A DNA stretch of 23,047 bases from a virus. The stretch spans positions 1 to 23,047 of the IMG/VR virus record IMGVR_UViG_3300043667_000001; one strand, written 5' to 3'. The notes below the pieces were generated by a model. The model did no database searches and was not told the origin of the DNA. It saw only the letters and a list, made by a program, of their open reading frames with translations. The stretch's first letter is position 1, and each line of letters starts with the position of its first letter. Positions 1,992 to 20,334 of this stretch are shown piece after piece. The position numbers and the translations under genes are program-made.

Positions 1992-2281
1992 CCAAGCTCG
2001 CATCCACTCTGCCCAAGGCCCTCGAAGACGACGGCCTCGCCAGCCTCAACCGGCGCCTCATCGAGAACCCGGAACAGCAGCACCTGGTCGTCGCGGTTGT
2101 CGACTGCAAGAAAACCGAGACCGTGATCGACGAGGGCGCGACCATCGCCACCGCCCGGGTGGTGCAGATCGAACCGGTCTACGACGAAGCCGACCAGGAC
2201 ACGGTGGCCGAGGTGCTGCGGCGGGCGTCGGACAAGCGCAACGGCCGGGTAGCACTACCGCTGGACCTGCCCCGTGGTTAA
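1988..2281 (+). CDS. Hypothetical protein, 97 aa
   Basis: The product has 97 residues, with an ATG overlapping the previous stop. It begins MTKLASTLPKALEDDGLASL and has a beta-rich centre (LVVAVVDCKKTETV, then ATIATARVVQIEPV) followed by a helix. It looks like a small globular alpha/beta protein with no transmembrane segment or metal-binding cluster. I do not recognise a named family. It lies in the exonuclease-to-resolvase block and probably shares its transcript. Confidence 0.68.
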   Translation: MTKLASTLPKALEDDGLASLNRRLIENPEQQHLVVAVVDCKKTETVIDEGATIATARVVQIEPVYDEADQDTVAEVLRRASDKRNGRVALPLDLPRG

Positions 2282-2420
2282 CGACGGCCAGCTGTACCCG
2301 TCCTGGCACACCGACGAACCGCCCACCCGCGGCGAAGACCCGGCCACCATCCGGCACCGCAAGCAGGCGCAGAAGCGACGCAAAATGCAGAAGGCATCCC
2401 GGAAAGCCAACCGGACATGA
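2274..2420 (+). CDS. Small basic hypothetical protein, 48 aa
   Basis: A GTG-started frame overlaps the end of the previous gene by 8 bases and the next ATG by ATGA. The 48-residue product has an acidic/polar first half and a very basic last half (RHRKQAQKRRKMQKASRKAN), suggesting nucleic-acid binding or just a charged tail. Support comes mainly from the tight fit between two longer genes. Confidence 0.5.
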   Translation: MVNDGQLYPSWHTDEPPTRGEDPATIRHRKQAQKRRKMQKASRKANRT

Positions 2421-2737
2421 CCGCCATCGAAGGGTCCGACCTCATCGCCGCCATCGCCGGCCTGATCGGGCACACCGGTGCCGAGCAGTTCCAGGTCCGC
2501 TACCACGACGACGAGCAGCCGGTCGTCTGGGTCTCGGTCGCCACCTACGCCGATGGCAGGGCAGAGGCCGATGCTGCGCTGACGCCGGACCAGGCCGCAT
2601 GGCGGCTCGCTGAGCGCTTAGTCGATGGCGGGCGCTGCACTCTGTGTTCACGGCCGACTGCCCTTGTGGAGAACGAGGACGACCTCACCTCGGGCGTCGA
2701 CTTCCTCTGCCAGTATCGCTACCGGTCGGGGATGTGA
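2417..2737 (+). CDS. Hypothetical protein with C-terminal Cys pair, 106 aa
   Basis: The product has 106 residues and an ATG overlapping the previous stop. The N-terminal part (SDLIAAIAGLIGHTGAEQFQ, then VRYHDDEQPVVWVSVATY) reads as an alpha/beta fold. The C-terminal part has a GGRCTLCSRP knuckle with one further Cys near the end, a partial zinc-binding arrangement. Proteins of this shape are common, unnamed members of actinophage replication regions. No enzymatic motif is evident. Confidence 0.68.
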   Translation: MTAIEGSDLIAAIAGLIGHTGAEQFQVRYHDDEQPVVWVSVATYADGRAEADAALTPDQAAWRLAERLVDGGRCTLCSRPTALVENEDDLTSGVDFLCQYRYRSGM

Positions 2738-2761
2738 CAGCCTGCCAGTCGGGACCCGCCG

Positions 2762-3046
2762 GTGAGGGTCGCCGAGCTCACCTACGACCAGGCCGCCGCA
2801 CTGGACCCGGCCACCCTGCAACCCGGGCAGGCGATCACAGTCCGGTTCACCACCAGCCGGGTCGGCGTCATCGGCCTCATCCCGTCCGGGTGGGGCCCGC
2901 CGATCCTGTGCGGCGAGCTGCGGTCGGAGGACGGCTGGCACTGGCACCGGACGGTTCGGGTCGCGCCAGCCACCCCCCGCGGGTTGGCGCTGGTCCTGGC
3001 GGCGCTGGAAAGCCTGGCCTACGGGTGGAGGCGGCGGGCGTCATGA
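2762..3046 (+). CDS. Hypothetical protein, 94 aa
   Basis: A GTG start 24 bases after the previous stop opens a 94-residue frame that overlaps the next gene by ATGA. The product begins MRVAELTYDQAAALDPATLQ, followed by beta strands (GQAITVRFTTSRVGVIGLI) and a short Arg-rich end. Upstream of the GTG there is only a weak GGTGAG-type site, so the start is less sure than the frame. Function is not recognised. Confidence 0.55.
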   Translation: MRVAELTYDQAAALDPATLQPGQAITVRFTTSRVGVIGLIPSGWGPPILCGELRSEDGWHWHRTVRVAPATPRGLALVLAALESLAYGWRRRAS

Positions 3047-3309
3047 TGCTGACCTTCCACGTGACCGCCCGCTGCCAAGGCTGCGGCCAGGTGGTCAAAG
3101 GCGCCATGTGCGCCTTCACGAAACGGATCAACCTCAACTCGTTCGTGACTAAGGACTCCTTTGCCCTGTTGGACCGGCGCTGCGGCTGCGACCCCAACGA
3201 CCACAGCCACGGGGTCGAGGTGCTGGAGTCCCGGCTGACCGAGGAATCCGCCGAACTGGTCGAGAAGGCGCGGGAGAAGATCCGGGCGCGGCGGAAGCGG
3301 GCTGCATGA
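3043..3309 (+). CDS. Small Cys-containing hypothetical protein, 88 aa
   Basis: The start is the ATG overlapping the previous stop; a second ATG follows directly at 3046. The 88-residue product has an N-terminal CQGCG knuckle, a CGCD pair in the middle, and a long charged C-terminal helix rich in Glu, Lys and Arg that ends in basic residues. The two Cys pairs could bind one zinc ion. It overlaps the RusA-like gene by ATGA. No known family is recognised. Confidence 0.62.
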   Translation: MMLTFHVTARCQGCGQVVKGAMCAFTKRINLNSFVTKDSFALLDRRCGCDPNDHSHGVEVLESRLTEESAELVEKAREKIRARRKRAA

Positions 3310-3821
3310 TGCAGGTCAGTTTCACCATCCCGGGCACCCCGCAGCAGCAGGGCAGCAAAACCAAGACGCCGCAGGGCTACTACCGGGAAGACAACCGGGG
3401 GCTCGACCCGTGGCGCAAGGACGCCCTTGCCGTGCTGCAGGGGGTTCGCGACCAGCACACGTTCGGCGACGGACCCAGACTGGGTGTGGCTGACGGCCCG
3501 ATGTTCACCGGCCCCGTGTTCGTCACCATGGTGGCCATCTGGACCCGGCCCGCGTCGCACTACGGCACCGGCCGCAACGCCGGGGTGCTGAAGGCGACCG
3601 CCCCGTTCTGGAAGGCGTCGGCGCCCGATCTGGACAAGGTGCAGAGAGCGCTGGGCGATGTGCTCACGCAGTCCGGCGTGGTTCTGGATGATCGGCTGAT
3701 CGTGCACTGGGACCCGTGCAAGGTGTGGGGGTCGGCGGCGCTGATGCAGGTCACCGTGGCCGACGCCGAACCGATCGCCGGTCCCAGCCTGACCGTCGAG
3801 GCGGAGGCCGTGCTGCTGTGA
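3306..3821 (+). CDS. RusA-like Holliday junction resolvase
   Basis: The 171-residue product opens with the strand FTIPGTPQQQGSK typical of RusA. It carries the family's acidic core: PDLDK (Asp108, Asp110, Lys111), a helix with Asp118, and SGVVLDDRLIVHW (Asp128, Asp129). These residues coordinate the metal that cuts Holliday junctions. The protein is somewhat longer than E. coli RusA because of an insertion around residues 45-100. With the YqaJ exonuclease upstream it gives the phage both ends of a recombination pathway. Start and stop overlap the neighbours by four bases each, which fixes the frame. Confidence 0.88.
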   Translation: MMQVSFTIPGTPQQQGSKTKTPQGYYREDNRGLDPWRKDALAVLQGVRDQHTFGDGPRLGVADGPMFTGPVFVTMVAIWTRPASHYGTGRNAGVLKATAPFWKASAPDLDKVQRALGDVLTQSGVVLDDRLIVHWDPCKVWGSAALMQVTVADAEPIAGPSLTVEAEAVLL

Positions 3822-4018
3822 CCGCTGCCACCCTGGTCATCGTCTACTGCGACACCTGCGGGCCGGCAGGCTCGGAACTGGCTACCCTCGCCACCGCGGA
3901 CGCAGCCCGCCGCCAGTTGGCCGGCCGCGGCTGGCAGGTCAACGTGTCCCACCCGCAGGCGCCGGGTCGTCGGCTCGACTTCTGCCCGCAGCACCGGATC
4001 GGGCGACCGCATGACTGA
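3818..4018 (+). CDS. Small Cys-rich hypothetical protein, 66 aa
   Basis: A GTG in a GTGA overlap with the resolvase stop starts a 66-residue product. It has CDTCGPAG near the N-terminus and FCPQHR near the C-terminus, which would fit a small CxxC...CxxH zinc finger. Between them lies a helix plus strand (ADAARRQLAGRGWQVNVS). The end overlaps the methyltransferase start by eight bases. A DNA- or protein-binding role is possible but not shown. Confidence 0.62.
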   Translation: MTAATLVIVYCDTCGPAGSELATLATADAARRQLAGRGWQVNVSHPQAPGRRLDFCPQHRIGRPHD

Positions 4019-4856
4019 GCCCTACTACCAGGACGATCTGGTCACCCTCTACCACGGCGAGGCCCTTGACATCCTGCGACAACTGCCCGACGCATCTGTA
4101 GATGTCCTCCTCACCGACCCGCCCTACTCGTCAGGCGGCGCGTTTCGTAGCGACCGCAACGCCGAACCGACCACTAAGTATCGGGGGTGGTCACAGAACC
4201 CCGACGGCAGCAGCAGGGCGCCGACTGCCGTTTACGGCTCATTCGCGGGCGACAGTAGAGATCAGCGCTCGTTCCTCGCCTGGGTCGGTGCGTGGAGTTT
4301 CCAAGCTCTGCGGATGACCCGAACGGGTGGCCACGCCTTCATGTTCTCTGACTGGCGACAACTGCCACTAGCGACCGATGCGCTGCAACTTGGGGGATGG
4401 GTCTGGCGCGGTCTGGCTGTGTGGGACAAGGGCGTCGGGCGACCGATGAGAGGCCGATTTAGGAACCACCTGGAGTTCGTCGTCTGGGCCACCAACGGGG
4501 CCACCGTCGAGGAGTCCGACGACTATCCCTCTGCGCTGATTTCGGTGCCGACTGTCCCGCCGTACGACAGGCAGCATGTCACTCAGAAGCCAGTTCGACT
4601 GCTGGAACATCTACTGCGCCTCGCCCCTGCCTCAAGCACTGTCGTTCTTGACCCCTTCAGCGGTTCAGGTTCCACACTCGTCGCGGCTAAGGCGCTAGGT
4701 CGCAAAGCTATCGGGATTGAACTGGACGAGTCCTATTGCGAGATCGCTGCGGTTCGCCTAGCGCAGGACGCGCTCGACTTTACGGGCACCGACGACACCG
4801 TGGCGGTACCTCAGGAAGAGTTCCGGCAGGCGTTCGACTTCGGCGGTGTCGCATGA
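4011..4856 (+). CDS. DNA N4/N6 (adenine or cytosine) methyltransferase
   Basis: The 281-residue product has the catalytic motif IV TDPPYSSGG (DPPY at 36-39) near the N-terminus. The S-adenosylmethionine motif I, DPFSGSGSTLVAAK (214-227), is near the C-terminus, followed by IGIELDESYCEIA. This order (IV before I) is that of the beta-type amino-methyltransferases of the N6_N4 family. The TQKP segment (191-194) before motif I is also typical. No cognate restriction gene is adjacent, so it is probably a solitary phage enzyme for protection from host restriction or for regulation. DPPY fits both N6-adenine and N4-cytosine targets; specificity cannot be read from sequence. Confidence 0.9.
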   Translation: MTEPYYQDDLVTLYHGEALDILRQLPDASVDVLLTDPPYSSGGAFRSDRNAEPTTKYRGWSQNPDGSSRAPTAVYGSFAGDSRDQRSFLAWVGAWSFQALRMTRTGGHAFMFSDWRQLPLATDALQLGGWVWRGLAVWDKGVGRPMRGRFRNHLEFVVWATNGATVEESDDYPSALISVPTVPPYDRQHVTQKPVRLLEHLLRLAPASSTVVLDPFSGSGSTLVAAKALGRKAIGIELDESYCEIAAVRLAQDALDFTGTDDTVAVPQEEFRQAFDFGGVA

Positions 4857-9261: not shown

Positions 9262-10791
9262 GTGTCAACTACAGAGCTAGCTCGACCAGATGTAGCGGCC
9301 GCTCCCGATCTTGTTCTGGGCAAGACGACTCCGCGGGTTTGGACTCGGCCACTGATACAGGGCCCTCCTGGTCCGTGTGGTTGTGGCTGCGCGTTGACCC
9401 GTGAGACTTCGGCCGGCTTTCAGGTCGATGACTTCGCCCGGGACGTACTGAGGCATCCGTTGGACCCGTGGGAGCGCTGGGCGGTCATTCACGGCATGGA
9501 GTTGCTGCCGAACGGCTGGCCCCGGTTCCGCCAACTGTTGATCTTGGTGGCTCGGCAGAACGGCAAGACCGAGCTGCTGGTCATTTTGAGCATCTTCTGG
9601 ATGTGGGTGCAGCGGGTCGGCATTGTGCTAGGAACTTCGACGAAACTCGACTACTCCCGTGAATCGTGGCTGAAGGTGGTCCGAGTCGTGCGCAATACCG
9701 CCGGACTCGCGCCGGACATCGCGGCCCGTGGCGCGGTGCGGTCGGTGAACGGTGAGCAGGAGGTTTCGACGCCGTGGGGGTCGCGGTACAAGATCGCCGC
9801 AGCCAATGAGACCGGTGGCAGAAGCCTGACGGTTGACCGGCTGGTTGAGGATGAGATTCGGCAGCATCACGACTATTCGGCGCATGAGGCGGCGGAGAAC
9901 GCGATGAACGCGGTCGCCGACGCGCAGGCGTGGGCGATCACCAACGAGGGCGACGACCGGGCGGTCGTGTTGCATGACATGTACGACGCCGCGCTGGGTT
10001 TCGTCAATACTGGCGATGGTGACCGCCGACTCGGCCTGTTCGCCTGGTCCGCGCCGCCTGGTTGTGATCTTGAGGATGTTGAGGCGACGGCGCAGGCGAA
10101 CCCGAATCTGGGCCGCCGGATCTTCTGGGAGAACCTGGAGGGCAAGGCGAAACGGGCGAAGCTGGCCGGCGGTGAGGCTGAGGCGCGGTATCGCACCGAG
10201 GTGCTGTGTCAGCGGGTGACGAGGATGAAGGATCAGCCGATCAGCCTGGATACGTGGGCGGCTACAGCGCTCGATGTCCATCCGTCTGGCGATCCGGTGT
10301 TTTTCGTGACGGTCGCCAAGGAGATGAAGTCGGCGTCCATCTCGGTCGCGGCGTTGCATGAGGGTGTGCCGCATGTGGAACTCGCCGATCATCGTGAGGG
10401 GCCGACGGGTTGGATCACTGGCCGAATCCTCGAGTTGGCGCGGCGGTATCCCTCGGCCAGGTTCGCGGCGTGGTCTGCCGGGCCGGTGAAGTCGTGGGTT
10501 CCGATCCTGGCTGAGCACGGGGTCGAGTTGGTGTTGTTGCCTGCCACCGATGCGGGCGCGGCGTGTGCCCATCTGCAGAAGCTGGCCGACAATCTGGCGT
10601 TCACCCATTCACCGAACCAGATCGTGGCCGAGTCCCTGGCTGGCGCGGAGAAGCGTGACCTTGAGGGCGGCGCCTGGACGTGGGACTGGTCCCATTCGAC
10701 CGGCGACCTGGCCCCCATCGTCGGGCATACGGGCGCGTTGTGGTTGCTGGAGAAGCACCCGGCGTCGAGTCCGACCGTGTATGTCTTCTGA
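9262..10791 (+). CDS. terL: Terminase large subunit
   Basis: The 509-residue product is a phage packaging motor. The N-terminal ATPase has Walker A ARQNGKT (97-103) and Walker B ending VEDE (195-198). The C-terminal half has conserved terminase segments: AGPVKSWVPILAEHG (406-420), AACAHLQKLADN, FTHSPNQ and TGDLAPIVGHTGALW. The first Asp of the RNaseH-type nuclease, expected at the end of the strand DPVFFVTVAK (344-353), appears as Thr350. That needs an alignment before concluding anything. It starts at GTG 9262; the stop overlaps the portal ribosome site. No small terminase gene is recognised upstream. Confidence 0.92.
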   Translation: MSTTELARPDVAAAPDLVLGKTTPRVWTRPLIQGPPGPCGCGCALTRETSAGFQVDDFARDVLRHPLDPWERWAVIHGMELLPNGWPRFRQLLILVARQNGKTELLVILSIFWMWVQRVGIVLGTSTKLDYSRESWLKVVRVVRNTAGLAPDIAARGAVRSVNGEQEVSTPWGSRYKIAAANETGGRSLTVDRLVEDEIRQHHDYSAHEAAENAMNAVADAQAWAITNEGDDRAVVLHDMYDAALGFVNTGDGDRRLGLFAWSAPPGCDLEDVEATAQANPNLGRRIFWENLEGKAKRAKLAGGEAEARYRTEVLCQRVTRMKDQPISLDTWAATALDVHPSGDPVFFVTVAKEMKSASISVAALHEGVPHVELADHREGPTGWITGRILELARRYPSARFAAWSAGPVKSWVPILAEHGVELVLLPATDAGAACAHLQKLADNLAFTHSPNQIVAESLAGAEKRDLEGGAWTWDWSHSTGDLAPIVGHTGALWLLEKHPASSPTVYVF

Positions 10792-10800
10792 GGAGGCGCC

Positions 10801-13236
10801 GTGGGTCTGATCGACCGCCTCTGGGGTTGGTATGCCACCCGCGTCACGCAGGCCGCCGAGACCGAGTCGGCCCGGTTCACTCAGCGCGGGGTTGATCCAT
10901 CCGGGGCGTCGGTGTTGATGACGTCCTACAGCGCTTTCAACGGCAACGAAGGTCCGAGCCTGGTAGGGGACAACCGGGCCGCCTACTCGGGCAACTCAGT
11001 CGTCTTTGGCGCGATCCTGGCCCGCATGTCGCTGTTCTCGGAGGCGACGTTCGCCTTTCGGGACCTGGCCGACAAGCATCTGTCGGGCGCGTTCGAGGTC
11101 GACGGCCGCCGCAACACAGCTTTGCGGAAGCTGGAGAATCCGTGGCCGAACGGCACGACCGGCGAACTGTTGGCCCGGATGATTCAGGATGCCGACTTGG
11201 CCGGCAACGCGTACGTGTGGGACGCCGGCGAGCAACTGGTCCGGCTGCGGCCGGACTGGATCACCATCGTGTCGGAACTGTCCACCGACGGCATCGGGCG
11301 GCCGTACCGGCAAGTGGTCGGGTACTACTACGAGCCGCCGATGACGGCTCGTAAGACTGAGGGTGAGCCGCAGTACTTCACAGTCGACGAGGTGGCGCAC
11401 TGGTCGCCGAACCCGGACCCTGAGGCCAACTTCCGCGGCATGTCGTGGCTGACACCAGTCCTGCGTGAGGTGTGGGCCGACAACGCCATGACCAACTACA
11501 AGATCAAATATCTGGAGAACGCGGCGTCGCCGAACCTGCTGATCCGCTACTCCCAGCGGCTGGGCCAGGACACCGTTGACAACGTCAAGGCCCGCATCGA
11601 GGCCCGGCACGGCGGGGTCGATAATGCGTTCCGCACCTTAGTGCTGGACGAGGGCGCCGACGTGACGGTTATCGGGAACACCTTCGAGCAGATGAACTTC
11701 TCCACGGTGCAGGCGGCCGGTGAGAACCGGATCATCATCGCCTCGGGGGTGCCGGGCATCGTCATCGGCTCGAAGGAGGGCCTGATGGCGGCGCCGCAGC
11801 CGCTCGACGCGAAGATCCTGACCCCTGTGGGCTGGTCGACGATGGGTGAGATGGAAGTCGGCTCTCAGGTCATCGGCCGCGACGGTAAGGCGCACGACGT
11901 GACCGGGGTCTACCCGAAGGGCGAGCAGGACATCTACCGCGTCATCTTCACCGACGGGGCGTCTACCGAGTGCACTGCGGACCATCTGTGGTCGGTCTGG
12001 ACGCCTCGTGACCGCGACTGGGGCTTGCCGCTGCGGTCGTTCACATTGGCGGAGATCATGCGCCGTGGGGTCCTGACAGCTCGCGGTAAGTCGCGCTGGT
12101 CGATCCCGATGCTTGACGACCCGGTGCAGTTCGATGAGCAGCCCCCACTGCCGCTTGACCCGTACCTGCTTGGTGCCCTGCTCGGCGACGGGTCGTTCGT
12201 CAACGGTGCTCTGGCTTTCGCCACGGCCGACGACGAGATGGTCACCAACGTCCGCAACGCGCTGCCCCAGGGTGTCAAGCTGGAGACCACGGGCCAGCCG
12301 TACGGCTATCGGATTACCCGCGCCGTCGAGGGATACCGCAATTCAGTGATCACGGTCCTGCGCGACCTGGGACTGTGGGACCATCTCGGCAAGGACAAGT
12401 TCATCCCGGACTGCTACATGACTGGCGACATCGCCGACCGGGTGGCTCTTCTGCAGGGCTTGGTGGACACCGACGGCAACGTCGAGAAGTCACCAGGCGT
12501 CGGTTTCCGGCTGTCGAACACGAGTGAGCGGCTTGTCCGGCAGGTTGCCGAACTGGTGCTGAGCCTGGGCGGTCGAGCTGCTGTCTTCGCTGAGGGCCGT
12601 GACCGTGGACCGAATGGCAACCCGCAGTGGGTGGTCCACGGCGGTCGGCTGCCGGACGAGATCATCCCGGCGAGGCTGACACGCAAGGTTGCGGACTGGC
12701 GCCCCGCTGGGATGTTGCCGCGGTCAGCGCGGGTCCGGTACATCGCTAGTGTGGTGCCGGTTGGCCGCAAGCAGGCCCAGTGCATCCGAGTCGACGCGTC
12801 GGACTCCCTCTACGTGACTGACGACTACGTGATCACGCACAACACCTACTCCAACTATGAGCAGGCGATGCGCCGGTTCGCCGACATCACGATGCGCCCG
12901 TTGTGGCGTTCGGTGTGTGCCTGTCTGTCGAAGCTGGTGACCGTTCCGCCGGGGACGCGGCTGTGGTTCGACACCGCCGACATTGCGGCACTGCGGCAGG
13001 GCGAGAAGGAACGCGCCGACACGATGCTGGTGCTGGCCGAAGCCGCTGCGGCGCTGATCGCAGCCGGCGGCGAGCCTGACACGGTGACCGCTGCGGTCGC
13101 TGCGGGCGATGTGTCGCTGCTGAAGTTCAAGGAACCCGAGCCGACCCCGCCCGCCCTGTTACAGGCCCCCAAGCAACTCAACGGCGGCAACGGCGGCCTG
13201 CCGCTCGCGATCCCGGCCGGGAAGGTGACCAACTGA
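10801..13236 (+). CDS. Portal protein interrupted by an in-frame intein
   Basis: The frame encodes 811 residues; without the intein (about 332-681) the portal is about 461 residues, the normal size. The portal forms the dodecameric DNA gate at one capsid vertex. Extein features: N-terminal region with the NSVVFGAILARMSLFSEATF segment, RLRPDWITIV, EVAHWSPNPDP, the FRGMSWLTPVLREVWADNAM helix, and VPGIVIGSKEGLMAA. It continues after the intein with TYSNYEQAMRRFADITMRPLW, which joins naturally to the upstream part. GTG 10801 has AGGAGG 4 bases upstream. The intein sits in a conserved part of the protein, as is usual for selfish inteins. Confidence 0.9.
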   Translation: MGLIDRLWGWYATRVTQAAETESARFTQRGVDPSGASVLMTSYSAFNGNEGPSLVGDNRAAYSGNSVVFGAILARMSLFSEATFAFRDLADKHLSGAFEVDGRRNTALRKLENPWPNGTTGELLARMIQDADLAGNAYVWDAGEQLVRLRPDWITIVSELSTDGIGRPYRQVVGYYYEPPMTARKTEGEPQYFTVDEVAHWSPNPDPEANFRGMSWLTPVLREVWADNAMTNYKIKYLENAASPNLLIRYSQRLGQDTVDNVKARIEARHGGVDNAFRTLVLDEGADVTVIGNTFEQMNFSTVQAAGENRIIIASGVPGIVIGSKEGLMAAPQPLDAKILTPVGWSTMGEMEVGSQVIGRDGKAHDVTGVYPKGEQDIYRVIFTDGASTECTADHLWSVWTPRDRDWGLPLRSFTLAEIMRRGVLTARGKSRWSIPMLDDPVQFDEQPPLPLDPYLLGALLGDGSFVNGALAFATADDEMVTNVRNALPQGVKLETTGQPYGYRITRAVEGYRNSVITVLRDLGLWDHLGKDKFIPDCYMTGDIADRVALLQGLVDTDGNVEKSPGVGFRLSNTSERLVRQVAELVLSLGGRAAVFAEGRDRGPNGNPQWVVHGGRLPDEIIPARLTRKVADWRPAGMLPRSARVRYIASVVPVGRKQAQCIRVDASDSLYVTDDYVITHNTYSNYEQAMRRFADITMRPLWRSVCACLSKLVTVPPGTRLWFDTADIAALRQGEKERADTMLVLAEAAAALIAAGGEPDTVTAAVAAGDVSLLKFKEPEPTPPALLQAPKQLNGGNGGLPLAIPAGKVTN
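11794..12843 (+). mobile_element. Class 3 (WCT) intein with LAGLIDADG homing endonuclease, in portal gene
   Basis: The insert covers portal residues about 332 to 681. Its N-terminus (PQPLDAKILTPVGWSTMGEM) has no Cys or Ser at the junction, as in class 3 inteins. Block B reads TADHLW, with Thr392, His395 and Trp397. Block F has QAQCIRVDAS with Cys661. The C-terminus reads VITHN (Thr679, His680, Asn681) before the +1 Thr682. Trp, Cys and Thr at these places are the class 3 W-C-T signature, in which the block F Cys starts splicing. The centre has two dodecapeptide motifs, LLGALLGDG (456-464) and LLQGLVDTDG (550-559), so the endonuclease is probably active. The N-terminal boundary is uncertain by one or two residues. 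Confidence 0.88.
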
Positions 13237-14033
13237 TGACTAAGGAAGCGCTACCGGTCCGGCCGACTGGCTTCGGGCGTCGCTACGAAGTTGAAGATCT
13301 GCACCTGCGCTCTGATGGCTCGGGCCGTGTCGTGGAGGCTTACGCCGCTGTCTTCAACACGGCCACTGCCGTCATTGACCAGGACGGCCACTACAACGAA
13401 GTGCTCACCCCGACGTCGTTCGCCAAGACGATCGCAGAGAAGAGCCCTACAGGTTTCAGCGTGCTGTTCAACCACGGCCGGACCATCGACGGTACCCCCA
13501 ACCCTGAGGCGACCCTGCCGATTGCTGTGCCGCTGGAGGTGGTCACCGACGAGCGGGGCGTGTTCACTGCCTCGCAGTATTTGGACAACCCGTTGGCGGA
13601 CCGGGTGCTGGGGGCAATCAAGGGCGGCGCTATCCGTGCGCAATCGTTCTCCGGGCGGTTCACTAAGTCGCTCAAGTCCTATCCAGACGGCCGGGCGCGA
13701 GGCGCGCTGCCGCTGATCACCCGGCAAGAGGTCGATATGCGCGAGTACGGCCCTGCCGTGTTCGCCGCCTACGAGGCCGCCGCCATCATGGGCACCCGTT
13801 CGGTGGATATGTTCCTGCGGGCCCTTTTGGAGATGCCACGCGACAAGGTGGCTGACTTCATCCAACAGTTTGAGGGACTCACCACTCTGTTGCCAGAGCC
13901 GGAAGCCCTCCCCGTCGGCACTCCAATCGGAGCCGCCGCACCGCTCGATGAGCCGGCGTTACGCCACTCCTCTCAGCCAACCTCCCTACGCTCCCGCATC
14001 CAAGCGGAGCGCCACAAACGAGGCATGGAGTGA
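13236..14033 (+). CDS. HK97-type prohead protease
   Basis: The 265-residue product starts at an ATG overlapping the portal stop. It shows the caudovirus prohead protease (U35-like) pattern: GRVVEAYAAVFNTATAVIDQ, SFAKTIAEK, the FSVLFNHGR segment with the probable catalytic His80, and IRAQSFSGRF with the probable catalytic Ser (137 or 139). It then continues into VDMREYGPAVFAAYEAA. It matures the capsid by cutting the scaffold (delta) domain and itself inside the prohead. The Pro/Ala-rich C-terminal tail (about 215-265) may be an interaction or self-cleavage region. Its place between portal and capsid gene is the normal one. Confidence 0.9.
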   Translation: MTKEALPVRPTGFGRRYEVEDLHLRSDGSGRVVEAYAAVFNTATAVIDQDGHYNEVLTPTSFAKTIAEKSPTGFSVLFNHGRTIDGTPNPEATLPIAVPLEVVTDERGVFTASQYLDNPLADRVLGAIKGGAIRAQSFSGRFTKSLKSYPDGRARGALPLITRQEVDMREYGPAVFAAYEAAAIMGTRSVDMFLRALLEMPRDKVADFIQQFEGLTTLLPEPEALPVGTPIGAAAPLDEPALRHSSQPTSLRSRIQAERHKRGME

Positions 14034-14036
14034 GAA

Positions 14037-15455
14037 ATGCCAATTGCTAGAGCGGAGCAGATCCGCACCCGCCAGGCCGCCATTCGTAGCGACCTGGACA
14101 CCTTGGAGGCCCTTGAGGACCCCCAAGAGGAAGACCATGTGCGTTCCGACGCTCTGCTGCAGGAGTGGGACGAGCTCGTGATGGAGTTGACCCCGCTCGC
14201 TGAGCGGGAGCAGCGGATCGCCGCTGTCCGTGCTGCGATGACCGAGGAAGCCAACCGTGAACGATCGGTTGTGGAGCCGGTAGGCGACCCGAACGTGTTC
14301 GTCCGCGGCAAGCGTGACCCATTCGCCGACCTGGAGTCGGTCCGCTCGGGCATGGCGGTGCCTTCCGACATCCGTGCCCGCGCCGTCAGCGCGATCGAGC
14401 AGTTCGCGGAGCGCTCTGACAAGTGGAGCATGGAACCCGACGCCGCGGAGAACGCGACGAAGATGGTGCAGAAGTCCGGTCATCAGTTCGGCACCGCTGT
14501 GGCGCGGCAGATGCTGGTTACCGGCTCCCCGGAGTATCTGGCTGCGTTCGACCAGTACCTGTCCGACCCAGGCGGCTTCTCCACCCGTGCGGCGCTGTCG
14601 CTGACCCCGGCGAACGGTGGCTACCTGGTGCCGTTCACTCTGGACCCGACGATCATCTTGACCAACGCCGGCAGCGCGAACCCGTACCGGCAGTTCGCGA
14701 ACGTCAAGACGACCACGACCAACGACTGGAACGGTGTCACGTCGGCCGGTGTGACTGCGGAGTGGACCGCTGAGAACATTGAGGCGGCGGACGCCTCGCC
14801 GACTGTCGGCCAGCTGAAGATCACCCCGCAGAAGGCTGACGCCTACCTGTTCGGCTCGTTCGAGGTGCTGTCGGACTCCGACTTCGCCGCGCAGCTCCCG
14901 GAGCTGCTGGCGGATGCGAAGGACCGCATCGAGGAGACCGCGTTCGCTGTCGGCACCGGCTCCGGCCAGCCGTACGGCATCATGACCCGAGGCACTTCGC
15001 AGAACCGGGCCGGCACTGCTGCGGCCGGTCCTGTCGCGCAGGATGTGTACTCGTTGCAGGCTGCGCTTCCGGCCCGTTTCCGTGGCCCGCGGTCACGGAA
15101 CATCTGGGTGGGCAACCTGAACGTCATCAACTCCTTGCGCAACGTCCCCGCGTTCACCGGTGCGACCACGTCGATCGTCAACGACGACACTGACCCGCCC
15201 CGTCTGCTGGGCAAGCCGTTCCTCGAGTCGACGTCAGTGCTGGGCACCTACACGACTGGCAACAGGGTGCTGGCCTATCTTGACGCGAACCAGTACTACA
15301 TCGTGGATCGGGTCGGCATGTCGGTCATCTACGATCCGATCGTGCTCGGCGCGAACCGCCGTCCGACCGGCTCGGGCGCCTGGTACGCCTTCTGGCGCGT
15401 CGGTGCCGATGTGGCTACAGCCACTGCCGTCCGTGTCTTCGCGACCCTCACCTGA
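14037..15455 (+). CDS. Major capsid protein, HK97 fold
   Basis: The 472-residue product begins with a helical, charged delta-type scaffold segment of about 115 residues (MPIARAEQIRTRQAAIRSDL onward), expected to be removed by the upstream protease. The mature part has HK97-fold signatures: GYLVPFTLDPTI, the EWTAENIEAADASPTVGQLK spine strand, KADAYLFGSFEVLSDSDF, then the E-loop/A-domain region to VRVFATLT. GGAG lies 6 bases before the ATG. The gene order terminase, portal, protease, capsid confirms it. No sign of damage. Confidence 0.92.
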   Translation: MPIARAEQIRTRQAAIRSDLDTLEALEDPQEEDHVRSDALLQEWDELVMELTPLAEREQRIAAVRAAMTEEANRERSVVEPVGDPNVFVRGKRDPFADLESVRSGMAVPSDIRARAVSAIEQFAERSDKWSMEPDAAENATKMVQKSGHQFGTAVARQMLVTGSPEYLAAFDQYLSDPGGFSTRAALSLTPANGGYLVPFTLDPTIILTNAGSANPYRQFANVKTTTTNDWNGVTSAGVTAEWTAENIEAADASPTVGQLKITPQKADAYLFGSFEVLSDSDFAAQLPELLADAKDRIEETAFAVGTGSGQPYGIMTRGTSQNRAGTAAAGPVAQDVYSLQAALPARFRGPRSRNIWVGNLNVINSLRNVPAFTGATTSIVNDDTDPPRLLGKPFLESTSVLGTYTTGNRVLAYLDANQYYIVDRVGMSVIYDPIVLGANRRPTGSGAWYAFWRVGADVATATAVRVFATLT

Positions 15456-15484: not shown

Positions 15485-16036
15485 ATGGTTGACAAGACGG
15501 AGGCTTCGAAGACGGAGCCTCAGAAGGACCAGGGAGCCAGCAAGGTTCCGAGTGGTGACGCAGTCGGTTCGCCGCCTGCGCAGGCCGAGAAGCCGGCGCC
15601 GACCGCATCGGCTGATCCGTTCTCGCTGAAGGCCAGCGAGGCCATCGACCCGCGCACCGGTGAGGACTTCAAGCCGGCTGTGCCTCAAGGCGGCGTGGCC
15701 GGGTTCGATGTGCTCGAGGGAACGGTCGGAGCCGTGCCCTCGGTGAATCCGGACCGGATTCCGGCGGACGTGACGCATGGCGTGTCGCCGGATGCGGGCG
15801 GCAACAAGCTGCTCGCTGCGGCTCAGGCGGCAGCGCCGAGCCTGACCCAGGAGTTCGTCGACACCTACAAGCTGTCCGATGAGGTGCTGGGGGCGATCGC
15901 GCGCCGCGAGATTCCCCCGCCGCCCACCAACGGGCCGCTGCGGACGTCGGATCTGTATCTGACGCCGGGTGGTTGGCAGTCGGTGCCTCCGGGTCAGAAC
16001 CCGGAGGATGTCGGGAAGAACGCCATCTCCCGGTAG
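15485..16036 (+). CDS. Pro/Ala-rich protein after capsid gene, unknown, 183 aa
   Basis: AGGAG at 15471-15475 serves the ATG at 15485; an earlier ATG at 15478 ends after four codons. The 183-residue product has a disordered-looking first half rich in Lys, Ala, Pro and Ser. A more ordered C-terminal part follows (FVDTYKLSDEVLGAIARREI), then PPPPTNGPLRTSDLYLTPGG. The C-terminal part recalls a small conserved protein found after the capsid gene in actinophages, possibly capsid-associated. A strong hairpin follows, ending the head operon. It could be a head accessory or a linker to the virion; not known. Confidence 0.7.
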   Translation: MVDKTEASKTEPQKDQGASKVPSGDAVGSPPAQAEKPAPTASADPFSLKASEAIDPRTGEDFKPAVPQGGVAGFDVLEGTVGAVPSVNPDRIPADVTHGVSPDAGGNKLLAAAQAAAPSLTQEFVDTYKLSDEVLGAIARREIPPPPTNGPLRTSDLYLTPGGWQSVPPGQNPEDVGKNAISR

Positions 16037-16047
16037 CGTTTTTCGCA

Positions 16048-16080
16048 GAGAGGCCCCGGGGTCGACCCCCCGGGGCTCTC
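16048..16080 (+). terminator. Strong GC hairpin ending the head gene block
   Basis: GAGAGGCCCCGGGG (16048-16061) pairs with CCCCGGGGCTCTC (16068-16080), with one unpaired G and a short loop. It is very stable but is followed by CTCA and a C-run rather than a T-run, so termination efficiency is uncertain. Confidence 0.65.
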
Positions 16081-16084
16081 CTCA

Positions 16085-16094: not shown

Positions 16095-16111
16095 AAGGAG
16101 GGCCGCGCATC

Positions 16112-16162
16112 ATGAGATGGGCCACCGTTGTCGCCACCGCGTTTGTGGCGCTGCGGCGGTGA
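16112..16162 (+). CDS. 16-codon signal-peptide-like leader coupled to peroxidase
   Basis: AAGGAGGG (16095-16102) is well placed for the ATG at 16112, which encodes MRWATVVATAFVALRR and then a stop. The peptide has an N-terminal Arg and a hydrophobic core, like the start of an export signal. Its TGA (16160-16162) overlaps the GTG (16159) that opens the peroxidase frame. It could be a translational-coupling leader, or a signal peptide separated from the peroxidase by a frameshift or sequence error. Confidence 0.4.
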   Translation: MRWATVVATAFVALRR

Positions 16163-17463
16163 AGGATCCGTTCATCCGAACCTTCCCCAACCTGCCCGGG
16201 TTCACCCAGCCCACCCAGCAGCAGATCGCGGACCTGGCACAAACCCAGCTGGACCCGAACGCCGACGCGCAGAACAACGTCGGGGTGAACTCCGGGTTCA
16301 CTTACTTCGGGCAGTTCCTGGATCATGACTTGACCCGGGACCTGTCCGGCCCGCCGACCGACTTCGTCGACCCGACCACCCTGACCAACGTGCGGACGTT
16401 CAGCTTCGACCTTGACTCGGTGTACGGCGACGGACCGGCCGGGTCCCCGCAGCTGTATGAGGCGGACGGGAAGCGGCTGCGGTTGCAGGAGTCCAACCTG
16501 AACGGGGTCCGTGACCTGCCCCGCAACCCTGACGGCTCCGCGATCCTGGTGGAGCCGCGCAACGATGAGAACCAGGTCATCTCCCAGATCCACGTGGCGT
16601 TCCTGAAGGCGCATAATCGGCTGGTCGATTCCGGCCTGTCGTTCACCGACGCCCGTGCCACCCTGCGGGCGCACTACCGGCTGGCGATCTTCGACGACTT
16701 CGTGCCGCACACCCTGACCGCCGTGGATCCGGGGCTGGTGAAGAAGTTGGAGCCGAGGAAGACCGGCACCCCGGTCGAGTTCTCGGTTGCGGCGTACCGG
16801 TTCGGGCACACCCAGGTCAGGTTGGCGTACCGGCTGAACGGCGACAACGCCGACGGGAACGCCGCGAACGGTACTTGTGACAACTTGCAGGTGTTCAGCC
16901 TGACCGCTCCGGCAGCGTCGCTGATGGGTGGCCGGCCGTTGCAGGCTGGCCGGCAGATCGACTGGGGCATGTTCTTTGAGGACTTCGACCAGCCTACGGG
17001 TTGCGCCGGTGTGCAGCCGCGCAACATCTCCCGTCAGATCGATCCGCTGATTTCGGCGTCGCTGTTCCGGTTGCCGATCCCCGGTGCGGAGGCGACCGGG
17101 TCGAACGTGTTGGCGTTCCGCAACATGTCCCGGGCCCATTTCTACCGGCTGCCGTCTCTGCAGTCGGTGCAGAAGGATCTGGGTCTGCCGGTGATCACCC
17201 CCGAGCAGTTGAACCTGAGCCCCGGCTTCGAAACGGGCACGCCCCTCTGGTACGGGGTGCTCGCCGAGTCGCAGCGGACCGAGGGCGGCGCACGGCTGGG
17301 TCCGACTGGCTCGGTGATCGTGAAGGCCGGGTTCGACACCGCCCGGACCAACGCGGTCAAGGCGGAGACCGGCAACCCCGGCACCGTGCCTAACGCGACC
17401 ATCACCGGCCCCGATGGGGTCATGACGGTCAGCGACCTGTTCAGATTCGCCGGCGTGGCCTGA
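16159..17463 (+). CDS. Animal-type haem peroxidase in phage structural module
   Basis: The frame from GTG 16159 gives 434 residues of the peroxidase-cyclooxygenase (animal haem peroxidase) superfamily, which uses haem and hydrogen peroxide to oxidise halides or organic substrates. Visible landmarks: GFTYFGQFLDHDLTRD (46-61) with distal His56 and calcium/haem-side Asp57; FSFDLDSVYGDG (81-92); EPRNDENQ with the probable catalytic Arg134; the helix ISQIHVAFLKAHNRLVDSG; and AAYRFGHTQVRLAY with proximal His217. The C-terminal domain ends FRFAGVA after a complete-looking fold, with no internal stop. The start is uncertain: ATG 16117 lies in the same frame but gives an implausible Cys/His/Arg N-terminus. 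Placement among virion genes suggests a virion-associated or lysis-time enzyme. Confidence 0.88.
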   Translation: MKDPFIRTFPNLPGFTQPTQQQIADLAQTQLDPNADAQNNVGVNSGFTYFGQFLDHDLTRDLSGPPTDFVDPTTLTNVRTFSFDLDSVYGDGPAGSPQLYEADGKRLRLQESNLNGVRDLPRNPDGSAILVEPRNDENQVISQIHVAFLKAHNRLVDSGLSFTDARATLRAHYRLAIFDDFVPHTLTAVDPGLVKKLEPRKTGTPVEFSVAAYRFGHTQVRLAYRLNGDNADGNAANGTCDNLQVFSLTAPAASLMGGRPLQAGRQIDWGMFFEDFDQPTGCAGVQPRNISRQIDPLISASLFRLPIPGAEATGSNVLAFRNMSRAHFYRLPSLQSVQKDLGLPVITPEQLNLSPGFETGTPLWYGVLAESQRTEGGARLGPTGSVIVKAGFDTARTNAVKAETGNPGTVPNATITGPDGVMTVSDLFRFAGVA

Positions 17464-17521: not shown

Positions 17522-18130
17522 GTGCCGCAGAACGACCTGGAAATCCCCGACGTCGAGGATTCCGAAGACATCGAAGTGGCGCAGGACGATCCGGCGCAGC
17601 CTGAGCAGCGGGCCGGGGAGCCGTCGTTCCACGGCTCGGTACTTATCCAGGTCGTCGGCGAGGACGGCGGGGTCAAGGATGAGCGCAAGATCGGGAACTT
17701 GATTACGACGGCTGGCGACGAGTACTACGCGAAACGCGGTGCGGCCGGTGTGCTCCCGGCGGCACCGGCGGATGTCACCAAGGTGACCGGGATGAAGCTG
17801 GGCACTGGCACCACCGCAGCCGCGAAGAGCGGCGCGGGTGCGCTGCTGGTGACTTACGAGCCGGCGTCGAACAACCTGTTCGATGCCTCGTTCCCGGTAC
17901 TGGTGGACCTGACGGGGGACACCGGCTGGCAGATCCAGTACAAAACGACGTGGGCTGCCGCGGACGTCACCGAGGTTGCGCTCACCGAGGCCGTCATCGT
18001 CAACGACGCCGCGGCCGATGCTACGAGCACGGCGCCGAATACGATCTCGCGCGTGGTGTTCACGGCCATTAACAAGACGGCCACAGATTCTTTAGTAATC
18101 ACATGGAATCACACCTTTAACGCGGCCTGA
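17522..18130 (+). CDS. Virion-like beta-rich protein, 202 aa
   Basis: AGAGGAG (17509-17515) lies 6 bases before the GTG start. The 202-residue product has an acidic N-terminal tail (1-35, many Glu/Asp). A beta-rich domain follows: FHGSVLIQVVGEDGGVKDER, NLITTAGDEYYAKR, VTGMKLGTGTTAAAKSG, and paired strands to the end (SRVVFTAINKT, SLVITWNHTF). This layout resembles phage tail or decoration proteins with an LGTG-type motif that sit on the virion surface. The last 40 bases are AT-richer and use a TTA codon, unlike the neighbours. The exact family was not identified. Confidence 0.7.
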   Translation: MPQNDLEIPDVEDSEDIEVAQDDPAQPEQRAGEPSFHGSVLIQVVGEDGGVKDERKIGNLITTAGDEYYAKRGAAGVLPAAPADVTKVTGMKLGTGTTAAAKSGAGALLVTYEPASNNLFDASFPVLVDLTGDTGWQIQYKTTWAAADVTEVALTEAVIVNDAAADATSTAPNTISRVVFTAINKTATDSLVITWNHTFNAA

Positions 18131-18198: not shown

Positions 18199-20334
18199 GT
18201 GACGCTGTCCGCTGACAACATCGTCCAGTTCGACGAGGGTTCGGTCGCGGCGACGGCTGCAGTGGTGGCGTCGCTACCGGCGGGCACGACTGCCGGTAAC
18301 ACGGTGATCGTGTTCCTTGGGGCGCATGCGACTGGCGTCACGGCCCCGTCTGGCTTCGTCGGCGTCCATTCGCTCGGCACCCCTGCCTACTACTACAAGT
18401 CCGCGGTGTCGGCGGCCGAGACGTCGTGGACGTTCACCCAGAACACGGCGCAGGACGCGACCTGGGTGGCGCTGGAACTGTCCAACATCGACATCGATCC
18501 GATGGAGTCGACGCAGACCTCCACGCCGACGTCCACATCGAACGGCGGGACCCGGACCAGCGGGACGACTGTCCCGATCGGCTTGTCCTCGGTGACGTTC
18601 GCGGTGTTCTTGGCGACATCGTCGACGGAGCTGAAGTCGTGGGACTCCTATACGAATGACTTCGTCGAGATCACCGAGTACGACTCGCCGTCTGGCGCCA
18701 ACCGACCTTGTGTAGCGGTGGCGGCCCGGTTCACCGATGGCACGCCGACGCCACTGTCCTGCACGGGGACGTTGACGATCGCGGCGGGCAGCGCAACGGC
18801 GTCGGTGCGCACCATCGTGTTCCGCGAGTTGGGGTCGCCGGTGTCGGCACCGCTGATCAGTCTCACCGGGTTCGAGTTCGGCCACCATGGCGGGCTGGCG
18901 GAGACTACGGTCCACGCGACCGGCGTGAACCAGCCGCTCGGGCCGGGGTCGCTGTCCGCGACGATCGTTCCGGTGGGGACGTGGGGCACCCACTACCAGA
19001 TCGGCGCGTTCGGCCGTAACGGTGACTACGGGATGCGGATCTCGACGTCGGCGGCTACGGCGTACGTCCCGATCGGCCGGCCGGCAGCGAACGTCGGCTC
19101 GTACGGGCAGAACATCCGGGTGATATCCGGGTCGGGTACTCCGACGGTGATGACGTGGGACGTTGCCACCGGCACCGATCTGTTGCTGGTCTATGACGTG
19201 GCGACGGAGATGTTCGGGTTGCGCTGGGACGCCGGGACAGTGGAATGGCAGACCGGGACGACACCGCTGAACACGTGGGCGTGGGTTGAGGTTCGGGTCA
19301 GGACGGTCGATACGGTCCACCGGGCCGACTGGTGGTGCGAGACCGGCACCGGTGACGGGCTGCAGACCTCGCCTGCCTATCTGACGGGTCAGGTGTCGAC
19401 CACCATCACGAAGGTGACGCTGTCAGGGTTGGGTTCGCAGACGGTCACGGCCGACTTCGACGACCTTGTCGCGGCCGGCCATTACGCGGCGTTCCCGCTA
19501 GGCCCGCACAAGGTGGTCCGGCTGGTGCCGGAGGCGACCGGCTCGACTGTATTCGGCACGTCGGCCAACTTCTCCCGGTTCACCGCCAACGGCACCCTGG
19601 CTGCCCTCACCGTCGACACGGTGGGCGCGTTGCTGGATGAGGTGCCACCGACCGTGTCGGCATCGGCGGACGGTGTGGTGCAGACCGCGGTCGCCGCGTC
19701 GGATTACATCGAGATCCCGATGCAGACCTACACATTGGCGCCGAACGAGGTCATTGCCGGGGTTCGGATGATCGCAGCCATGTGGGGCGGCACCGGCACC
19801 GGCACGGGCACGCTGGAGATTTGGGGCTATGACGGGGTGACCGTCGCGTCATTGATGCCCCTGCGGATCTTCGATGCCGGGTCGCCGACCGAGTACTCGG
19901 CGACGGAGCCGCTGTGGATGGCGAGGGCGTGGGGGGCCACCCCGGGCACCCCGTGGACTCCGACCCGGCTGAACGCCGCGTGCATTCGGATGGGCTACTC
20001 GAACGATGCGACCCCGGACATGGGCATGTCGGCGGTTTACCTGGAGGTGGCGACCCGGGAGACGGTCCCGTTCGTCGTGCACCGGCTGACCGATGATGAG
20101 GACCCGGAGGCGGTCGCGGCAGTGGTCACCGAGACTTTGCATCCGTACAACTCGGGGGTTCAGACCTACACCGTCTCCAACAATGACTTGACCCGGACGG
20201 CTGTCTTCAACTATTCGATCGGCGGCACCCCGCAAACCCCTGTGGTGGTGGATCCTGGCGATCCTCCGGTGGATGTCACGGTGGGCGCGGGGGCTTTCGG
20301 CGAGGTGGACTCGACGTCGTTCGGCTGGCAGTAG
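18199..20334 (+). CDS. Large beta-rich virion/fibre-like protein, 711 aa
   Basis: The GTG has CAGGAG about 6 bases upstream. The 711-residue product is rich in Thr, Ser, Gly and Val with few charged residues, typical of phage fibres. It appears multi-domain. The N-terminal domain (1-215) is beta-sandwich-like (VVASLPAGTTAGNTVIVFLG to TASVRTIVFREL). A central domain (220-430) has the concanavalin/LamG-like pattern (GDYGMRISTS, LLLVYDVATEMFGLRW, WVEVRVRTVD). Next is a third beta domain (440-650), and last a C-terminal part with HPYNSGVQTYTVSN and a Pro/Val/Asp-rich end. A lectin-like middle domain would suit sugar binding on the host surface. Inference from composition and pattern. Confidence 0.75.
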   Translation: MTLSADNIVQFDEGSVAATAAVVASLPAGTTAGNTVIVFLGAHATGVTAPSGFVGVHSLGTPAYYYKSAVSAAETSWTFTQNTAQDATWVALELSNIDIDPMESTQTSTPTSTSNGGTRTSGTTVPIGLSSVTFAVFLATSSTELKSWDSYTNDFVEITEYDSPSGANRPCVAVAARFTDGTPTPLSCTGTLTIAAGSATASVRTIVFRELGSPVSAPLISLTGFEFGHHGGLAETTVHATGVNQPLGPGSLSATIVPVGTWGTHYQIGAFGRNGDYGMRISTSAATAYVPIGRPAANVGSYGQNIRVISGSGTPTVMTWDVATGTDLLLVYDVATEMFGLRWDAGTVEWQTGTTPLNTWAWVEVRVRTVDTVHRADWWCETGTGDGLQTSPAYLTGQVSTTITKVTLSGLGSQTVTADFDDLVAAGHYAAFPLGPHKVVRLVPEATGSTVFGTSANFSRFTANGTLAALTVDTVGALLDEVPPTVSASADGVVQTAVAASDYIEIPMQTYTLAPNEVIAGVRMIAAMWGGTGTGTGTLEIWGYDGVTVASLMPLRIFDAGSPTEYSATEPLWMARAWGATPGTPWTPTRLNAACIRMGYSNDATPDMGMSAVYLEVATRETVPFVVHRLTDDEDPEAVAAVVTETLHPYNSGVQTYTVSNNDLTRTAVFNYSIGGTPQTPVVVDPGDPPVDVTVGAGAFGEVDSTSFGWQ

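Follow-up and report, generated by a model that had tools for sequence, protein, structure and literature searches.

The peroxidase-cyclooxygenase superfamily is defined by a signature of GQxxDHD, RxxE and a proximal His that is hydrogen-bonded to an Asn; halide oxidation is the dominating activity in most of its studied members, and the conserved Gln has been linked to halide binding (PMC4420034). Here we analyze a putative member of this superfamily encoded on the plus strand at positions 16159–17463 of the window, by which we mean the complete IMG/VR record IMGVR_UViG_3300043667_000001 of 23,047 bases. The phage enzyme is closest in kind to the short bacterial peroxicins (putatively family 5 and not family 6), which are also short and single-domain and have GQxxDHD, RxxE and the proximal His (PMC4420034). 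It differs from peroxicins in being phage-borne, in belonging to a clade of its own and in the consistent presence of leaders in that clade, whereas most of the sampled cellular homologues are leaderless. With the structurally characterized enzymes, i.e. the Cyanobacterium TDX16 peroxidase (8s6c), DdPoxA (6erc), myeloperoxidase (MPO) and LPO, it has the fold and the catalytic residues in common, but it is shorter and only ~17% identical to them. In MPO, a methionine follows RxxE (RSSEM); the phage enzyme has no methionine there and reads RNDEN. The Orpheovirus haem peroxidase (BFVD A0A2I2L5A1), the only fold match with E < 0.001 among predicted viral structures, is likewise virus-encoded, but it comes from a giant eukaryotic virus, is 16% identical and lies in an unrelated context. 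A Yasminevirus alpha-dioxygenase falls just above E 0.001 in the same set. The locus resembles exported morons of phages, and auxiliary metabolic genes generally, in being non-structural, placed in the late block and slot-mobile, but a haem peroxidase of this type was not found in the open-licence phage literature, where a search for phage haem peroxidases gave nothing relevant. Set against annotated phages, the PHROG families and this literature, an MPO-type haem peroxidase is new as a phage gene and would represent a new type of auxiliary gene.

The frame 16159–17463 is stop-free and translates into 434 amino acids, with GTG 16159 as a possible in-frame start. A sequence-only reading of this DNA had proposed an animal-type haem peroxidase on the basis of three motifs in an intact frame. 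The profile search agrees, with PF03098 matching the protein at E 2.4e-12 to 3.8e-12 (46.7 bits against a gathering cut-off of 25), and all three motifs are found at the residues proposed. The distal motif GQFLDHD comprises G51, Q52, F53, L54, D55, H56 and D57, the sequence EPRNDEN gives R134-N-D-E137, which provides the distal Arg and, at the position of the ester-forming Glu, E137 of the R-x-x-E in the superfamily signature, and the proximal His is H217, within RFGH. PF03098 was also found in all 15 phage homologues searched. In their alignment Q52, D55, H56, D57, R134, E137 and H217 show no variation, and G51 and N322 are kept in most of the homologues; N322 lines up with the Asn of 8s6c and is replaced by Asp in L014 and L016. 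These residues match the published signature (PMC4420034). A sequence profile built from the phage homologues retrieves Dictyostelium peroxinectin A and the cyanobacterial 8s6c; searches of PHROGs and NCBIfam gave no match for the window peroxidase. With moderate confidence (mean pLDDT 70, pTM 0.79), AlphaFold2 predicts an alpha-helical haem peroxidase fold. The top Foldseek matches of the model all belong to the peroxidase-cyclooxygenase superfamily, namely 8s6c, 6erc, MPO and LPO (probability 1.00, TM ~0.6 and ~17% identity for this moderately confident model), followed by COX and DUOX. Profile match, residues and predicted fold together confirm an intact peroxidase domain of the myeloperoxidase superfamily with a complete set of catalytic residues.

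The phage virion gene block in which the peroxidase had been placed is real. Upstream on the plus strand are genes for the large terminase subunit (9262–10791; phrog_9, E 6e-58), a portal protein (10801–13236; Phage_portal 2e-33, LAGLIDADG_3 7e-10), a prohead (S78) protease (13236–14033; E 6e-13) and an HK97-fold major capsid protein (14037–15455; E 5e-32), and in the gap between capsid and peroxidase a gene for a 183-residue protein with no family match (15485–16036). Downstream, on the same strand, follow a 202-residue protein of phrog_5417 (17522–18130), with homologues in the L011 and L106 contigs too, and several long fibre-like proteins, among them one of 711 residues (18199–20334) that is fibre-like by composition alone and matches no family. 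GC content is even over the late region (0.66; range 0.64–0.68), and a YqaJ/RecE-type exonuclease gene lies upstream of the terminase. The terminase is 33% identical to terminases of Microbacterium and Arthrobacter phages and the capsid is 36% identical to that of Gordonia phage Eyre; overall these two proteins are 33–36% identical to those of Microbacterium, Arthrobacter, Gordonia and Mycobacterium phages, and the host is thus most likely an actinobacterium. The portal is interrupted, in frame, by an intein at approximately residues 335–690 that includes a LAGLIDADG homing endonuclease, and the portal of L018 (471 residues) has no intein. The window also encodes an N6/N4 DNA methylase (4011–4856; PF01555, E 1.3e-28) with no obvious partner nuclease adjoining. 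The GC-rich hairpin described earlier, downstream of the capsid operon and ahead of the peroxidase, does have a predicted stem (16048–16083, plus strand), but its stability is not unusual for its composition (z –1.57 against shuffles) and no T run follows. It is possibly, on weak grounds, a terminator, an attenuator or an RNA-processing site, and of these the two features just given make it a weak candidate for a terminator.

Scans of IMG/VR revealed relatives of the peroxidase, 36–74% identical to it, in ~30 contigs including near-duplicates (~24 distinct), and 50,697 GenBank phages contained no relative. All phage relatives are metagenomic contigs, whose hosts were deduced from phages only distantly related to them. 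On the majority of these contigs there are genes for a terminase, portal, protease, capsid or tape measure; as a terminase probe phrog_9 performed better than PF03354, which was poor. In the tree, 23 phage sequences form a single clade (support 100/97) with zero cellular members inside, the cellular side being a sample retrieved with patterns or profiles. When 84,980 species genomes were scanned, the best cellular matches were ~36% identical. In 395 genomes from a single actinobacterial class, a profile search gave 16 strong matches, all nearer to cellular references by BLAST, and one of these, L150 from an actinobacterial genome, is the long-branched sister of the phage clade. Recent capture of a host gene was rejected, given that cellular matches reach only ~36% and that the clade has no cellular member. 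From the second tree we excluded L020, whose copy is broken and long-branched, and L129, a partial copy. The viral-contig copies L017 and L019 were kept and are placed outside the phage clade, so peroxidases entered viral contigs more than once. The contigs L017 and L020 are similar and carry a non-clade peroxidase (2122–3324 and 1019–2214, respectively) beside a small repeated gene; in L020 its continuous frame is lost.

An N-terminal export signal is predicted in 23 of 23 phage relatives when the frame is read upstream in phase, 10 of them Sec-like and 13 of the twin-arginine type (e.g. DRRTLLRLG). These assignments follow a simple rule of hydrophobic core and charge, not a trained predictor; a loose script pattern gave 15 Tat signals, and L004 and L011, which have KR and not RR, were counted as Sec. 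The Tat type makes up one tree subclade of 12, the thirteenth Tat copy being L129. Among cellular homologues, 7 of 37 scored with a leader, two of the seven from doubtful starts. Five peroxidases from actinobacterial MAGs (L028, L029, L031, L064 and L069) have Sec-like leaders, unlike most cellular homologues. Predicted export is kept in the phage clade while the route swaps between Sec and Tat, which suggests that extracytoplasmic location is what matters.

The window copy departs from this pattern. A Sec-like leader ORF, MRWATVVATAFVALRR followed by a stop, is found at 16112–16162 (plus strand), and direct reading of the sequence places a ribosome-binding site AAGGAGG for its ATG at 16095–16101 on the same strand. 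Relative to the peroxidase frame the ORF is shifted by one base, and its stop codon shares bases with the GTG start (GTGA); a C10 homopolymer lies near the ORF, just upstream of the peroxidase. At the corresponding place the 74% identical relative L002 has an in-frame leader, MWKKIAAIAAALVLVATPSLAEGAVKDPF. The original start of the window gene was probably other than GTG 16159, and the one-base offset would be an error made in sequencing or assembling GC-rich DNA, or else a genuine mutation; if genuine, a leaderless enzyme may be produced by re-initiation. With its leader out of frame, the window copy may therefore be unexported or truncated. A programmed frameshift at 16112–16159 was rejected, no slippery motif being seen, and coupled re-initiation via the GTGA overlap is conceivable, but the leader is in frame in the homologues.

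The position of the peroxidase gene varies between contigs. In L006 it follows the portal gene and lies between small genes before a fibre gene, and in L003 and L004 it comes after the fibre and papain-like genes; the terminases, portals and capsids of these three contigs are 80–85% identical to one another. L018 has it between portal and protease and the window after the capsid, and these two have the terminase, portal, protease and capsid families in common. As to the survey of capsid–peroxidase order called for by the sequence-only reading, the same association recurs in several unrelated contigs, but the order is not conserved. A gene that moves this freely among slots is not expected to encode a fixed component of particle assembly. 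Values of dN/dS are 0.15–0.32 in five pairs, which indicates purifying selection and hence that the protein is maintained. Patchy occurrence, mobile slots, selection and absence from the 50,697 phages are the features of a moron or auxiliary metabolic gene.

We consider it quite likely, judging from sequence, that the gene encodes an exported, late accessory haem peroxidase of an uncultured, soil-type actinobacteriophage. Such a moron-type gene would be mobile among actinophages and probably transcribed late, together with the virion genes. Its product would carry a Sec or Tat leader when translated, leave the cytoplasm through host export and receive its haem from the host. Outside the cytoplasm the enzyme would use H2O2 via the distal His56 and Arg134 and the proximal His217 to oxidize small substrates. 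Given Gln52, halide or thiocyanate oxidation is possible, and plain peroxidase activity and halide oxidation appear equally possible. The likeliest benefit would be control of oxidants at the surface of the infected cell late in infection, where H2O2 would be removed and/or turned into an oxidant against competitors or the envelope. The phage-specific clade, the purifying selection and the two export routes imply that extracellular oxidant chemistry matters in phage infection of soil actinobacteria.

Two narrower versions of the exported accessory enzyme can be envisaged. The first, a credible though tentative one, is an auxiliary metabolic gene for H2O2 detoxification only, which would shield infected cells where soil or rhizosphere is rich in oxidants. 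External H2O2 would be met at the location to which the protein would be exported; on the other hand, catalases outdo peroxidases as bulk scavengers of H2O2, which counts against detoxification as the only function. Peroxicins have been proposed to have evolved against reactive oxygen, which favors this version, but the conserved Gln52 is tied to halide binding and speaks against it (PMC4420034). The second, somewhat more doubtful, is a weapon or exclusion system in which the secreted enzyme turns halide or thiocyanate and H2O2 into oxidants of the hypohalite type; these would be lethal to competing cells, would inactivate phages arriving from outside or would weaken the envelope in favor of lysis. 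The dominance of halide oxidation in the superfamily (PMC4420034), the intact catalytic residues, the late-block location and the predicted export are all consistent with it, but substrate specificity is unreadable at 17% identity to solved enzymes and no source of H2O2 was identified near the gene. Unlikely, in our estimate, is the full proposal that an actinophage lineage uses, late in infection, an MPO-superfamily enzyme secreted through Sec in some phages and through Tat in others to make hypohalite- or hypothiocyanite-type oxidants against competitors, superinfecting phages or the envelope; if true, it would be the viral counterpart to the antimicrobial peroxidases that animals deploy in innate immunity, i.e. 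a phage parallel to an innate-immune weapon.

The place of the gene in the structural block had suggested to the sequence-only reading that the enzyme rides on or in the virion, where it would oxidize the host surface at adsorption or cross-link the particle. The gene does lie among capsid, fibre and tail genes and is co-directional with them in many contigs, and the window frame could begin leaderless at GTG 16159. Every relative with a readable N-terminus, however, has a Sec or Tat signal. Tailed-phage particles assemble in the cytoplasm, from which such leaders would remove the protein, and this counts against virion assembly. Moreover, the slot varies relative to every structural gene, the capsid included, no fusion to a structural domain is seen, and the peroxidase is missing from all GenBank phages searched. 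The accompanying parallel with encapsulin cargo has no sequence basis, as the DyP peroxidases carried by encapsulins belong to a different superfamily. We regard a virion component as very unlikely, and the present analysis corrects the virion-cargo reading. An assembly chimera, or a host gene caught at a contig edge, has next to no likelihood: the metagenomic origin and the homopolymer and frame offset just upstream could point that way, but phage genes flank both sides, GC is uniform, the same clade occurs in independent phage contigs and the nearest cellular matches are only ~36% identical.

Two further genes recur near the peroxidase. A phrog_16701 gene, annotated as a peptidase and papain-like by eye, is found in four phage contigs (L003, 9167–9913; L004, 9190–9912; L006, 10808–11491; L011, 7115–7846). 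In Tat-type phages a common gene lies downstream of the peroxidase (L009, 7055–7795; L016, 11623–12381) and, from a look at its sequence, may encode a glycosyltransferase.
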